Origin: Acetobacter sicerae
GTDB taxonomy: Bacteria; Pseudomonadota; Alphaproteobacteria; Acetobacterales; Acetobacteraceae
Direction: 5' to 3'
Length of the DNA: 64,000 bases
NCBI RefSeq assembly: GCF_011516765.1
Contig: NZ_JAAABN010000010.1
Coordinates: 62,001-126,000 of the forward strand
This document shows, piece by piece, positions 44,133 to 49,181 of the stretch (within the stretch, counting starts at the first letter, position 1; each line of letters starts with the position of its first letter). The notes beneath the pieces were generated by a model, which worked only from the letters and a program-made list of their open reading frames with translations, did no database searches and was not told where the DNA came from. The translations under genes and the position numbers were made by a program.

Positions 44133-47100
44133 ATGACGACCCTTTCCAGCGGCGATTCAACGACCAGCACCGCCGTTACGGCTGCGGATCCGCTAACTGT
44201 CGAAAATGGAGCAACCGTCACGGCGCTGACCGTCAGCAGCGGCGGCGTCGCGATCATCTCAGGAAACAGTGTTTCCGGAACGGTCCAGAACAGCGGCTCC
44301 CTGCAGATCGTGTCCGGCGGCGTCGCCAGCGCAACGACCCTCTCCAGTGGCGGCCATGAAGTCGTCAGCAACGGCGGGCTGGACTCCAGCGCGATCGTCC
44401 AGCCCTTCGGGATAATCGATATTGCCGATGGAGGCGTGGCGTCCGCCATCCTCCTCAATTCCGGCGCGGCGCCAACCTATTACAGGAGTGGTGGTTACAC
44501 GTCCGACGGAGCAAACGTCGTCGGACTGGACAGCGCCACCTCCATCAGCGGTCCCATCGCCGCAATCGTCGAAGGCGGCGGCCTGCTGAACAGCGCCACG
44601 ATGGGCGACGCCACGCTCATCGTGTCATCCGGAGGAAGCGCCACCAATATCATCATGCAGTCCGCCGATCTCAGCGGTCCTGCGGCTGACAACGGCGTCT
44701 ACGCCACCCTCATCGTGAGTAGCGGCGGCTCCATCTCCAATGTTTCCATCAGCGATAACGATGAAATCTACGAGTATGGAACGGAAACCAATATCACCGT
44801 TGGAGGCAACGGCGCCTACAATCTGCCCACCGGTGTCTTCGCCGGTCGCGCAACCAATACCTATGATGAACTGGCATCTCCCACGGCCCGGGCCGAGAAC
44901 GACACTGTCTCCAGTGGTGGTGCCCTGATTATTAAGCAGGGTTCAGCCCTCGACACAGAAGTGACTGATGGGGGCACATTACAGATTCAGGGAGGGATGG
45001 TCTCCGGCGTCACCTTTATCACCAGCAATAGTGACGCCACCATCACCTCGCTGCAGGGTGCCGAAGCAAATTTCGCGGGAGGCACAACGAGCAACGTCAC
45101 GGCGCATTACGCCTATCTGTATGTCCATGGCTCCTCGACGTCCGTCACCGATATCACTGTGGATTCCCGCGGCTGGCTGAATGCTTACGATCAGGGCACG
45201 GTCATGTCCACGACACTGAGCGGCGGCGCTTCCGCGACAGTCAGTGGTAGTGCGCTACTGGAAAGCGGCAGCGCTACGGGAAGCGGCACGTCGCTCACGG
45301 TTGCTGGCGCCAGCATCAACGATTTCCAGATCAGCGACAGCGCCACCGCCACAGTCTCATCGGGCGGCATCCTGAAACAGACCGCTCTCGACACAAACGC
45401 CTCGGCATCCGTTCTGTCTGGCGGCCTGACCGTTTCGGTCACTCTCTCCGCCAGCACTTCAGAAGACGTCGAGAGCGGCGGTACGGCAAGCGGCACGCTG
45501 GTGAATGGTGGCAACGAAACGCTGTTTTCCGGCGGCATCGAGAGCGGTGGCACGGTCGACGACGGCGTCCTTACCGTCAGTTCTGGCGGGTCCGCCGTCA
45601 GCGTCACTCTGACAGCCACCGACACTGCATTCGGCTCTGCCGTGATCTCCTCCGGCGGCGTGACCAGCAACACGACTGTCGTCGGCCCCGAAGACACCAC
45701 CATAAACTATGCTTTCTGGGTCAGTGCGGGAGGAACCGCCTATAACACCGTCGTTTCTCACGAAGTCATGGTCGTGGATTCAAGCGCGTATGCCTCCGGC
45801 GTCACGCTCAATGACGCGAGCATCACCGTCAAAGGGTCGGCGGATAATGTGACAATTGCCCCTCAGGACAACAGTTACTACGGCCTGTTTATCGATGGCG
45901 GAACGGTTTCCGGCATCGTCGCATCACGGGGCCACATCGAAGTCTATAACAACGGTTCGATCTATGGCGACACGATCGAAAGCGGCTCCGTAGAATATGT
46001 CTACAGCAGCGGCACCGGTGGCGCGACATCCTATGACGCCGATGTCCAGTCCGGCGGTCGTCTTTCCACGTTCGATGTGGACGCTACAGTCATCTCCGCA
46101 ACCGTCGAAGCAGACGGCATGCTTCAGGTCAAAGAGCAGGCCATTGCGAGCAATGCCTCTGTCAACGGCACGATGACAATCAGCAGCAACGGCTCCGCCA
46201 TCGACACACAGCTTCTGTCCGGCGGCGTGATGACGATCAACGCCTCCCTTGGTGAAAACACCATCGTTTCTTCTGGCGGCGAAATGACCCTCTCCTCGGG
46301 GGGCGTCGGCAGCAACACGCTGGTCAGTCTCGGCGGACAGGAAATTGTTTCGTCCGGCGGCATGGAGAGCGGCGGCACGATCAGCGGAGATCTGTCGCTG
46401 ACCGGTTCCAGCGCGCTGGGCCAGCAGATCACCCTGCTCGACGGTGGCACACTGGAGATCACAGACAACGCTGTCGTTTCCGGCCTGAATGCCGTCAACG
46501 GCGTGATCACCGTGGACAGCGGCGCGAGCGTCAACAACCTCTCGGCACAGGGTGGCGTCCTTACGATAACCGGTTCGGGCATCCTTTCCGGCGGCGTCCT
46601 GTCCGCAAACACGTCTCTTCATCTTGCTTCCGGCGCGCTCGTCCAGGACCTGACCTTCTCCAGCGGCACGATCACAAGCGTAACGGATACGGCACTCCTC
46701 AGCGCGGCCCGACTGTCATCCGACACCGTCACCACAATCGCCTCGACCGGCTCCGGTCAGGATCTGACGGTGTCTGGTGGACAACTCCTTGTTTCCGCAG
46801 GCGGCATTGTCAGCGCCGCGACCGTCAGTGACAGCGGTGACATCCACATCTATGGCGGACAGGTCTCCAGCGTCACGCTTGCAGGCGGCTCATTGGAAAT
46901 CGATGACGACGGTTACGCCGCCGACACACAGGTTCTCTCCGGCGGCCTGCTCGCAGTCGGCGACCCGTCCATCAGCGAAAACGCGATCGTCTCTTCCGGT
47001 GGCGTGATGACTGTCTCCTCGGGCGGCGTCGGCAGCGGCACGTTTGTGGAATCCGGCGGCCAGGAAAGCGTCTTTTCCGGCAGTCTCGAAAGCGGTGGCA

Positions 47101-48569
47101 CGGTCAGCGGCGGCCTGCTGACCATCGGGCCCGGCGGGTCCGCCATCAGCGTCACCCTGGCCACCACCGACGCGACGTCGCCTTCCACGCTCGTCGTTGC
47201 AAGCGGAGGCATCGCCAGTTCAACGCTGATTGAGGACCAGAGCGTCGCCCTTGTCGCCGGCTCCACGGTGTCGGATACGATCAGCGGCGCGACCGCGCAG
47301 GAAATCGTCTCCTCGGGTGGCATCGCCTCCGGCGCCACGATTGATGGCGGCGGCACGCTGACCGTTCTCAACGACGGACAGGCTTCCAGTGTCACAGTGG
47401 AAAATGGCACGCTGTCTCTAAGCGGTACGCACGCTTCCGCCAGTTCCGTAACACTGGAATCATCCGGTCACATCACGCTGGCTGATGGTGCTGTCCTCAA
47501 CGGCTCCATTTCTGACGCCGGAACAATGACGGTACAGAGCGGCGGCACGGTCTCCAATCTGACCATTCTGTCCGGCGGACGTCTGACCATCAGTTCCGGA
47601 GGCACCGGACTGGGAACGACCCTCGAGTCCGGCGCGGTTCTGGTGGGTGAGGAGGCCGCCACGGTCGACGGCACCACGATCAGCAGCGGCGCTCTTCTCC
47701 AGATCGACAGCGCCGCTATCAGCAGTGATACGTATCTGACATCCGGCGGCTCCATCGAACTGCTCAACACGTCATGGTCAGACACGGACACTGTCAGTTT
47801 CACCGACGATATTCTGACGATTGACGATGACGGCACAGCGATCACCCTCAACCTGTCCGCCGCAGATAATGCCTATTTCACCAAGGATTTCGTTCTGTCC
47901 CAGGCGGATACGGACCCGCTTTTCGCCAACAGCAAAGACATCCTCATTACGCTCGCGCCGGTCGCCTGTTTCTGCCGGGGCACCCTGATCGAAACAGAAT
48001 TCGGCCCGATGCTGATTGAAAACATTCTGGAAGGAACAGGAATTCTGACACGTGACGGCAACATGGCGACGCTCCGCTGGAAAGCCGTCAGACGGTACAG
48101 TCACAGGCAGATGGTTCTTGGAGCGGCACTGCGACCGCTGGTCATCCGGGCCGATGCGCTGGGTGATGGTCTCCCGCGTCGGGATCTGCATGTTTCACAA
48201 CTGCACATGCTCCTCATTGATGAGCGGTTCATCCCGGCCGCAGCCCTGATCAATGATCGCACCATCTTCATCAAGCCAAATGTCACCGCCATGGACTATT
48301 ATCATCTCGATATTGGTGCCCAGGACATCATTTTCGCTGAAGGTGTAGAAACAGAATCCCTGACCGATGACGATGGATCGCGCCGTGGTTTCGATAACTA
48401 CGATCAGTCCGTCGCCGCTCTGCCGTCTTCACCGGATGTTGTCATGGCGGCTCCCCTGATAAGGGAAAGCGATGTTATCGCAACGCTTCAGGCGCGCTAT
48501 GCACGACGGGCCGCGCTCCTCGGAGCGCCCTTCCAACGAATATGTGAAAATGATCTTCTCCTTCTATAG
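44133..48569 (+). CDS. giant AIDA-repeat surface protein with C-terminal Hint_2 domain
   Basis: A 1478-aa protein. About residues 25-1245 are an array of imperfect 15-22-residue repeats of the AIDA-I/passenger type (VSSGGVAIISGNSVSGTVQN, VVSNGGLDSSAIV, VLSGGLTVSVTLSASTSEDV), predicted to form a long beta-helix. At Cys1279 begins a Hint (hedgehog/intein) domain: ACFCRGTLIETEFGPMLIEN, LRWKAVRRYSH, then IRADALGDGLPRRDLHVSQL, then HMLLIDERFIPAAAL and YYHLDIGAQDIIFAEGVETE. This is the Hint_2 pattern. No signal peptide, autotransporter barrel or downstream extein is visible, so self-cleavage or ester formation at the Cys, and type I-like export, are inferred. Confidence 0.85.
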   Translation: MTTLSSGDSTTSTAVTAADPLTVENGATVTALTVSSGGVAIISGNSVSGTVQNSGSLQIVSGGVASATTLSSGGHEVVSNGGLDSSAIVQPFGIIDIADGGVASAILLNSGAAPTYYRSGGYTSDGANVVGLDSATSISGPIAAIVEGGGLLNSATMGDATLIVSSGGSATNIIMQSADLSGPAADNGVYATLIVSSGGSISNVSISDNDEIYEYGTETNITVGGNGAYNLPTGVFAGRATNTYDELASPTARAENDTVSSGGALIIKQGSALDTEVTDGGTLQIQGGMVSGVTFITSNSDATITSLQGAEANFAGGTTSNVTAHYAYLYVHGSSTSVTDITVDSRGWLNAYDQGTVMSTTLSGGASATVSGSALLESGSATGSGTSLTVAGASINDFQISDSATATVSSGGILKQTALDTNASASVLSGGLTVSVTLSASTSEDVESGGTASGTLVNGGNETLFSGGIESGGTVDDGVLTVSSGGSAVSVTLTATDTAFGSAVISSGGVTSNTTVVGPEDTTINYAFWVSAGGTAYNTVVSHEVMVVDSSAYASGVTLNDASITVKGSADNVTIAPQDNSYYGLFIDGGTVSGIVASRGHIEVYNNGSIYGDTIESGSVEYVYSSGTGGATSYDADVQSGGRLSTFDVDATVISATVEADGMLQVKEQAIASNASVNGTMTISSNGSAIDTQLLSGGVMTINASLGENTIVSSGGEMTLSSGGVGSNTLVSLGGQEIVSSGGMESGGTISGDLSLTGSSALGQQITLLDGGTLEITDNAVVSGLNAVNGVITVDSGASVNNLSAQGGVLTITGSGILSGGVLSANTSLHLASGALVQDLTFSSGTITSVTDTALLSAARLSSDTVTTIASTGSGQDLTVSGGQLLVSAGGIVSAATVSDSGDIHIYGGQVSSVTLAGGSLEIDDDGYAADTQVLSGGLLAVGDPSISENAIVSSGGVMTVSSGGVGSGTFVESGGQESVFSGSLESGGTVSGGLLTIGPGGSAISVTLATTDATSPSTLVVASGGIASSTLIEDQSVALVAGSTVSDTISGATAQEIVSSGGIASGATIDGGGTLTVLNDGQASSVTVENGTLSLSGTHASASSVTLESSGHITLADGAVLNGSISDAGTMTVQSGGTVSNLTILSGGRLTISSGGTGLGTTLESGAVLVGEEAATVDGTTISSGALLQIDSAAISSDTYLTSGGSIELLNTSWSDTDTVSFTDDILTIDDDGTAITLNLSAADNAYFTKDFVLSQADTDPLFANSKDILITLAPVACFCRGTLIETEFGPMLIENILEGTGILTRDGNMATLRWKAVRRYSHRQMVLGAALRPLVIRADALGDGLPRRDLHVSQLHMLLIDERFIPAAALINDRTIFIKPNVTAMDYYHLDIGAQDIIFAEGVETESLTDDDGSRRGFDNYDQSVAALPSSPDVVMAAPLIRESDVIATLQARYARRAALLGAPFQRICENDLLLL

Positions 48570-48785: not shown

Positions 48786-49181
48786 TCACCGCTTTGCGGC
48801 TGAGGCCGGGGCATGTTCGCTCTTGTAAGACTGTGGCTCAACAGCCTTTGTAAGATGCGGCAGTGTCGGTGCGTCCGGCGCGGTCTGTGGCGTCAGCGCC
48901 GACCGATAGGGTCCACCGATCCGCTCAGGACGGGAAGACCGTGTATTGCTTCTTTCCAAAGAGGCCGAAGGCGTCGTCTGAACAGTCCGGGATCGTGGTA
49001 TTGATCTTGATATGCCGCTCTGACGGTACCCTTCGGTCCGACTGGCTGTCGAGGAAGCGCGTCCGTTATAGCGGCTCTGCGCGTCTGCGACGCCGGATTG
49101 GAACACCATGCCGGAGACCAGAACCAGACCTGAAAGCAGCACCACGAAAGAGCTGTTTTTCAAAATGCGTTCATCCGTCAT
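48786..49181 (-). CDS. small exported basic protein at the tail of the riboflavin operon
   Basis: A 131-aa precursor with a clear signal peptide (SSFVVLLSGLVLVSGMVFQS, cleavage probably VADA-QS). The mature part is low-complexity, rich in Ser, Arg, Pro and Thr (YNGRASSTASRTEGYRQSG; SRSIPRSRTVQTT), with no Cys and no recognised domain. GGGAG lies nine bases before the ATG. It starts 18 bases after the ribH stop, so it is probably read with the rib genes; nusB, the usual neighbour of ribH, is not here. Function unknown. Confidence 0.6.
   Translation of the reverse strand: MTDERILKNSSFVVLLSGLVLVSGMVFQSGVADAQSRYNGRASSTASRTEGYRQSGISRSIPRSRTVQTTPSASLERSNTRSSRPERIGGPYRSALTPQTAPDAPTLPHLTKAVEPQSYKSEHAPASAAKR

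Follow-up and report, generated by a model that had tools for sequence, protein, structure and literature searches.

We analysed a 64,000-nucleotide window of the Acetobacter sicerae genome (contig NZ_JAAABN010000010.1, positions 62,001 to 126,000) and in it one gene, at 44133..48569 on the forward strand, whose 1478-residue product (ATG start) combines AIDA repeats with a Hint_2 domain, as read from the open reading frame and Pfam. At the level of its sequence, the protein consists of an AIDA passenger with heptosyl-target repeats, a Hint_2 domain in which the Cys1/Ser/His centre is intact, and then a short tail. We propose, with a probability of roughly 45%, that the product is an adhesin-like protein, secreted or displayed at the surface, in which a heptosylated passenger is carried by a C-terminal Hint module instead of a translocator barrel. 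Export would possibly be by a type I system, and release or attachment would proceed through a thioester at Cys1.

The passenger (residues 1–1278, 44133..47966, forward strand) is predicted to be a strand-loop-strand beta-helix with a period of 19. Across the whole protein, Pfam reports ten stretches of AIDA repeats (PF16168) and, besides these and Hint_2, nothing at E ≤ 1, while NCBIfam reports 15 stretches of TIGR04415, the strand-loop-strand repeat that is a target of O-heptosylation. These repeats make it a passenger of AIDA type. In residues 1–1278, Gly and the large hydrophobic residues recur with a period of 19 (also 18, 37, 38 and 56) more strongly than in any of 200 shuffles; Ser shows no period above that level. 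The passenger sequence matches the solved TibA chain 4q1q (E 7.4e-13), as well as chains of the Ag43/AidA-I type. It contains 16% Ser, no Cys, and 117 Asp plus Glu against 14 Lys plus Arg. No signal-peptide-like stretch was seen at the N terminus, as judged by eye without a predictor. An earlier note on this DNA had described more than 1200 residues of AIDA-type repeats leading into a Hint_2 domain at Cys1279, and the Pfam matches and the period of 19 bear this architecture out.

What the earlier note overlooked is a link to the heptosyltransferase family BAHT (TIGR04414, the TibC/AAH family), which scores over its cut-off in 34 of 49 Acetobacter genomes. When these genomes are split at four Hint matches, a threshold chosen after the data had been seen, BAHT is over cut-off in 33/33 Hint-rich genomes versus 1/16 of the others. 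Within the same genus, HlyD (TIGR01843) is over cut-off in 31/33 versus 3/16, and a strong autotransporter barrel (E < 1e-30) is found in 8/33 versus 12/16. Among 150 sampled Acetobacteraceae genomes, Hint_2 is present in 119, with at least 24 matches in the richest; it occurs in all 40 genomes with BAHT over cut-off versus 79 of the 110 others. We also inspected 20 BAHT neighbourhoods from 20 genomes and 17 genera, taken from high-scoring places, several of which stop at contig ends (e.g. L180, 4,487 bases). Ten contain a Hint_2 gene, adjacent on the same strand in eight, and two others (L171 and L176) have an adjacent AIDA protein with neither Hint nor barrel. The genes at these two loci (L171 3526–9270; L176 10688–18253) encode giant AIDA-repeat proteins, the latter ending in Big_13 and FG-GAP repeats.

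The A. sicerae genome itself has two BAHT genes, one of which overlaps a Hint_2 sister of our gene by 4 bp. The product of this BAHT gene scores 368 bits against TibC and, as read off the alignment, keeps Asp110, Lys230, Arg286, Trp305 and the four C-terminal Cys, with Ser in place of Thr226; roles for Asp110, Thr226, Lys230, Arg286 and Trp305 of TibC are given in an excerpt of PMC4358343. Every one of the 12 AIDA matches in the genome shares its frame with a Hint_2 match. The autotransporter barrel PF03797, sought by profile search, is absent from both the 1478-residue protein and the genome, in agreement with the earlier note, which had seen no transporter barrel. An AIDA-type autotransporter, which would have a C-terminal barrel, is therefore rejected. 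The resemblance to the AIDA-I/TibA autotransporters lies in the AIDA/TIGR04415 repeats, the beta-helix matching TibA 4q1q and a genome-encoded heptosyltransferase that keeps active-site residues of TibC. Unlike them, our protein lacks a visible signal peptide and a translocator barrel and has a C-terminal Hint_2 domain, and the repeat genes beside BAHT in this family encode Hint_2 (10/20) or neither Hint nor barrel (the two scanned).

The Hint_2 domain (PF13403; residues 1279–1413, 47967..48371) is matched at E 3.2e-33, with 115.6 bits against a cut-off of 28.4, and has the fold of the Hint superfamily with Cys1 at its start. We compared its residues with 84 distinct Hint_2 domains (83 from Acetobacter, one from Paracoccus) and 20 from other Acetobacteraceae genomes, 104 in total. 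No Hint match came from L145 and L150 among the 88 sources searched, and a short piece at L068 (fewer than 100 model positions) was left out; two duplicated genes (L065=L079 and L067=L078) count twice among the 86 rows and once among the 84. Cys1, here Cys1279 (47967..47969), is invariant (86/86 rows and 20/20 family rows). The block-B equivalent, Ser1355-x-x-His1358 (48195..48206), has His in 86/86 rows and Ser or Thr in 65 and 21, respectively, with both Ser and His in 20/20 family rows. A Glu-Ser/Thr pair, here Glu1408-Ser1409 (48354..48359), is found in 104/104 domains, close to where inteins have the block G Asn/+1. The register to inteins was derived from the motif and, with low confidence, from the ends of the alignment ranges. 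Since the Acetobacter sample was hand-picked, mostly down the Hint ranking, and the 20 family rows come from the top-scoring part, this conservation may be overstated. The invariance of Cys1, the block-B Ser/Thr and His and the Glu-Ser/Thr pair suggests that the domain is probably active, of the cleave-or-transfer kind and not a splicing intein.

Other positions are less uniform. The His of block-F type is present in 79/84 and 20/20 domains but is Gln in five of the 84, namely our gene (Gln1397, 48321..48323), its three closest orthologues and L142; we infer that this His served reactions that do not take place in a domain lacking the intein His-Asn. The motifs listed in the earlier note are all present, as CFCRGT, GDGLPRRDL and HMLL. 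Of the two Cys in CxC the first alone is conserved; the second position varies among relatives. The catalytic His/Thr equivalents, the loss of which the note had named as decisive against activity, are retained. Among the four closest orthologues, the ratio of nonsynonymous to synonymous substitution rates in Hint is 0.10–0.21.

Comparison with solved structures places Cys1279 at residue 1 of inteins. A profile of 58 Hint_2 domains finds the BIL domain 2lwy (E 5.8e-5) and the intein PI-SceI 1gpp (E 0.0018), over about 40 block A positions only, and sets the Hint_2 Cys1 on Cys1 of PI-SceI. The VIA-align structural alignment starts at model residue 100, which is Cys1279, opposite intein residue 1 and residue 258 of Hedgehog 1at0. 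As a single sequence, the C-terminal 240 residues match nothing in the PDB at E ≤ 1. Together with the conserved block-B Ser and His, the Hint fold and the identity of Cys1279 as Cys1 make plausible the earlier suggestion of cleavage or ester formation at the first Cys.

Behind Hint_2 lies a tail of 65 residues (1414–1478, 48372..48566), at a place where most sampled Acetobacter relatives have a further domain. It has no Pfam match and, by sequence, no sterol-recognition region of the Hedgehog Hog type. We classed the 84 sampled proteins by tail length behind the Asn1422 position. Tails of 51–57 residues are found in our clade and the Paracoccus locus (6/84), 128–171 residues with one GW domain in 20/84, 187–206 residues (class B) in 21/84, and 307 residues with two GW domains in 1/84. 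The remaining 36/84 have 514–714 residues, assigned to GW plus glycosyltransferase by length and by eye except for L013, which was scanned and has Glyco_trans_1_4 over cut-off. The earlier statement that there is no C-extein must be qualified: 65 residues do follow the Pfam domain, and at least 128 lie beyond the Asn1422 position in 78/84 relatives. The GW and class-B domains have no Pfam name in L013 and no NCBIfam name in L012, L013, L017 or L021; a carbohydrate role for them is a guess. Our genome has 11 Hint_2 matches including the present gene, and these ten sisters and their extra tail domains were likewise overlooked before. One of the sisters (L013 7331–10990, contig C6) has, within a single polypeptide, a repeat passenger, then Hint and then a C-terminal glycosyltransferase, as seen with Pfam, and L071–L073, L076 and L077 have the same layout by eye. 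In a quick tree, our five-member clade sits on a long branch on the GW/glycosyltransferase side.

In the mechanism we propose, a BAHT enzyme would likely heptosylate Ser residues of the repeats while the protein is in the cytoplasm. A type I exporter would then, at about even odds, carry the protein out independently of a Sec signal, and an operon on contig C9 is the candidate for it. Cys1279, aided by His1358 and Ser1355, would probably carry out an N–S acyl shift that leaves the passenger as a thioester. This thioester could be resolved by water, which would free the passenger, or by a nucleophile, which would attach it to a surface molecule much as Hedgehog is joined to cholesterol. In the sisters, the GW, class-B or glycosyltransferase domain stands behind Hint at the place of the Hedgehog sterol-recognition region and may bring the acceptor. 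The lack of such a domain in our protein favours hydrolysis or an acceptor in trans.

A bolder extension, which we consider quite improbable, is that in Acetobacteraceae the barrel of heptosylated AIDA adhesins has been replaced by a Hedgehog-like conjugation module that joins the adhesin covalently to a surface glycan. Hint_2 would make the C-terminal thioester, the GW, class-B or glycosyltransferase domain would present a sugar or sugar-lipid acceptor, and the role of the invariant Glu-Ser/Thr pair would be to activate that acceptor or to serve as a relay. Our short-tailed protein would use an acceptor in trans or would have fallen back to release. Simple self-release, in which Hint hydrolysis after export frees the passenger without any attachment, is a somewhat unlikely alternative that the short tail without a further domain and the Ala before Cys1 would suit. 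It leaves the strict Glu-Ser/Thr pair unexplained, as it does the 128 or more residues behind Hint in the great majority of genus-level relatives (78/84), yet six of the 20 family relatives are short-tailed.

The C9 operon encodes an HlyB-like ATP-binding cassette (ABC) transporter (TIGR01846, 531 bits, below the cut-off of 726), followed by a strong HlyD. Exporters of this type track Hint-richness in the genus. A search for co-occurring type I exporters, as the earlier note had advised, thus yields a candidate elsewhere in the genome that co-occurs in the genus but is not adjacent to our gene. Because of this non-adjacency and the exceptions G153 and G185, the type I system is a candidate exporter only. 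The full C9 locus (L089 8367–18514) comprises the ABC and HlyD genes, then a TPR/GT2/GT4 glycosyltransferase gene and one for an unknown 379-residue protein. The large glycosyltransferase behind HlyD has a weak GW-like match (12.9 bits in a search of four proteins), which is no more than suggestive of a GW domain.

A second HlyD, on contig C8 of the same genome, is probably not the passenger's exporter because it is part of a system with a C39-peptidase exporter and a peptide whose leader is double-glycine-like. This locus (L016 10814–14945) encodes a 132-residue protein, with the leader recognized by eye, HlyD and the C39-peptidase ABC exporter; a class-B Hint_2 gene is transcribed divergently from them. 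In L136 and L143, too, HlyD and a Hint_2 gene are near each other.

Several observations weigh against the reading of a heptosylated passenger processed by an active Hint module. The AlphaFold model is poor, with a mean pLDDT (its per-residue confidence) of 46 and about 55–69 in the Hint core. Pro precedes Cys1 in 41/84 domains and in 16/20 of those from other family genomes. On the export side, no exporter gene adjoins our gene, G185 has eight Hint matches and no close C9-type ABC match except a 46% piece at a contig edge, the C9-type ABC gene in G153 carries stop codons, and G160, G172 and G195 have the exporter yet only one to three Hint matches. The co-occurrence counts ignore relatedness and depend on the post hoc four-match split. 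Neither a Hint_2 gene nor an SGG-rich open reading frame was seen in 8/20 BAHT neighbourhoods, and the other BAHT gene of our genome (contig C7) has no Hint_2 gene alongside. Finally, short tails are not rare, since the family sample spans 40–199 residues with 6/20 at 63 or fewer.

The Pro before Cys1 bears on a second alternative, that Hint_2 is catalytically silent in normal life and that the fold and tail form a C-terminal export or surface-attachment module whose conserved residues hold the fold. Pro at this position is poor for intein cleavage. An excerpt of PMC5458133 describes it as a slow ligation site, so the relatives concerned may cleave slowly or not at all. In our protein the residue is Ala1278, a more permissive one, as in all five genes of the clade. 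A silent domain would also fit with no processing being known and with invariant residues that include the likely structural Trp1316, Pro1335, Pro1348 and Leu1372. However, Cys1, His and Ser/Thr make up the catalytic set of inteins; all 104 sampled domains keep them, in contrast to the variable position two residues after Cys1, and we regard this alternative as unlikely.

A type V-like route in place of type I, with a partner barrel exporting the protein in trans, would agree with AIDA passengers being type V cargo elsewhere and with the strong barrel matches in a minority of Hint-rich genomes (8/33), but our genome has no PF03797 match (two-partner and other barrel families were not searched) and no Sec signal was seen by eye, which makes this route very unlikely. 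A splicing intein, or a type A BIL domain that splices or cleaves at both ends, is rejected as an extremely unlikely explanation: inteins and a BIL domain are the closest solved structures and Asn1422 is frequent (65/84), but Asn1422 is not invariant and lacks a conserved Cys, Ser or Thr behind it, and the Glu-Ser/Thr pair stands in every domain near the site of the missing His-Asn, within the limits of the register given above.

Hint domains, AIDA passengers and BAHTs are each already known. The Hedgehog Hog domain differs from our module in that ours is bacterial and short-tailed, lacks a sterol-recognition region and has the Glu-Ser/Thr pair. Type B BIL domains, as described in an excerpt of PMC4031507, share the Hint fold, Cys1 and the lack of intein block G, whereas Hint_2 is a different Pfam family, ends very large repeat proteins and has the invariant Glu-Ser/Thr pair. 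The Hint_2 proteins of Rhodobacteraceae belong to the same Pfam family, and the Paracoccus locus L080 encodes a relative (34% identity over query residues 30–172); the AIDA passengers and BAHT set the Acetobacteraceae proteins apart. In Rhodobacteraceae, Hint_2 is fused to RTX repeats. Hint and RTX are both enriched in bloom-forming Rhodobacteraceae, according to an excerpt of PMC12487129. An excerpt of PMC8776678 mentions Asaia proteins with hint domains and, in one group of polyketide clusters from acetic acid bacteria, O-heptosyltransferase genes, without drawing a functional link between the two. Among the open-access literature matches listed, we found no functional study of acetic acid bacterial Hint_2 and no description of BAHT paired with AIDA-Hint_2 in place of autotransporters, or of Hint_2 followed by a glycosyltransferase. 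The BAHT pairing gives the Hint_2 family a testable biochemical context. If Hint_2 processes or conjugates heptosylated adhesins, it would provide another route for AIDA-type proteins onto the surface, parallel Hedgehog lipidation in bacteria and possibly serve as a ligation tool.

Our gene stands alone between gyrA and orf131-ribH. The 131-residue product of orf131 (48786–49181, reverse strand) is unknown and is 70–79% identical to those encoded beside the gene in three other Acetobacter genomes, G188, G184 (Acetobacter sp. UBA5411) and G151. In all three, the orthologue is flanked by gyrA and orf131 with no exporter alongside, and we rejected a functional assignment from the neighbourhood; ribH, ribAB and ribE lie near it in G188 and G184 only. 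Searching viral_contigs for viral relatives gave 31 pattern matches, none confirmed. The three orthologues flanked by gyrA and orf131 are 1909, 2517 and 2738 residues long. A more distant gene with a 758-residue product stands at a different location in A. conturbans (G155), where an apparent truncated second copy of Hint plus tail (L068 8941–9477, contig C2) has 49% identity over 179 residues.

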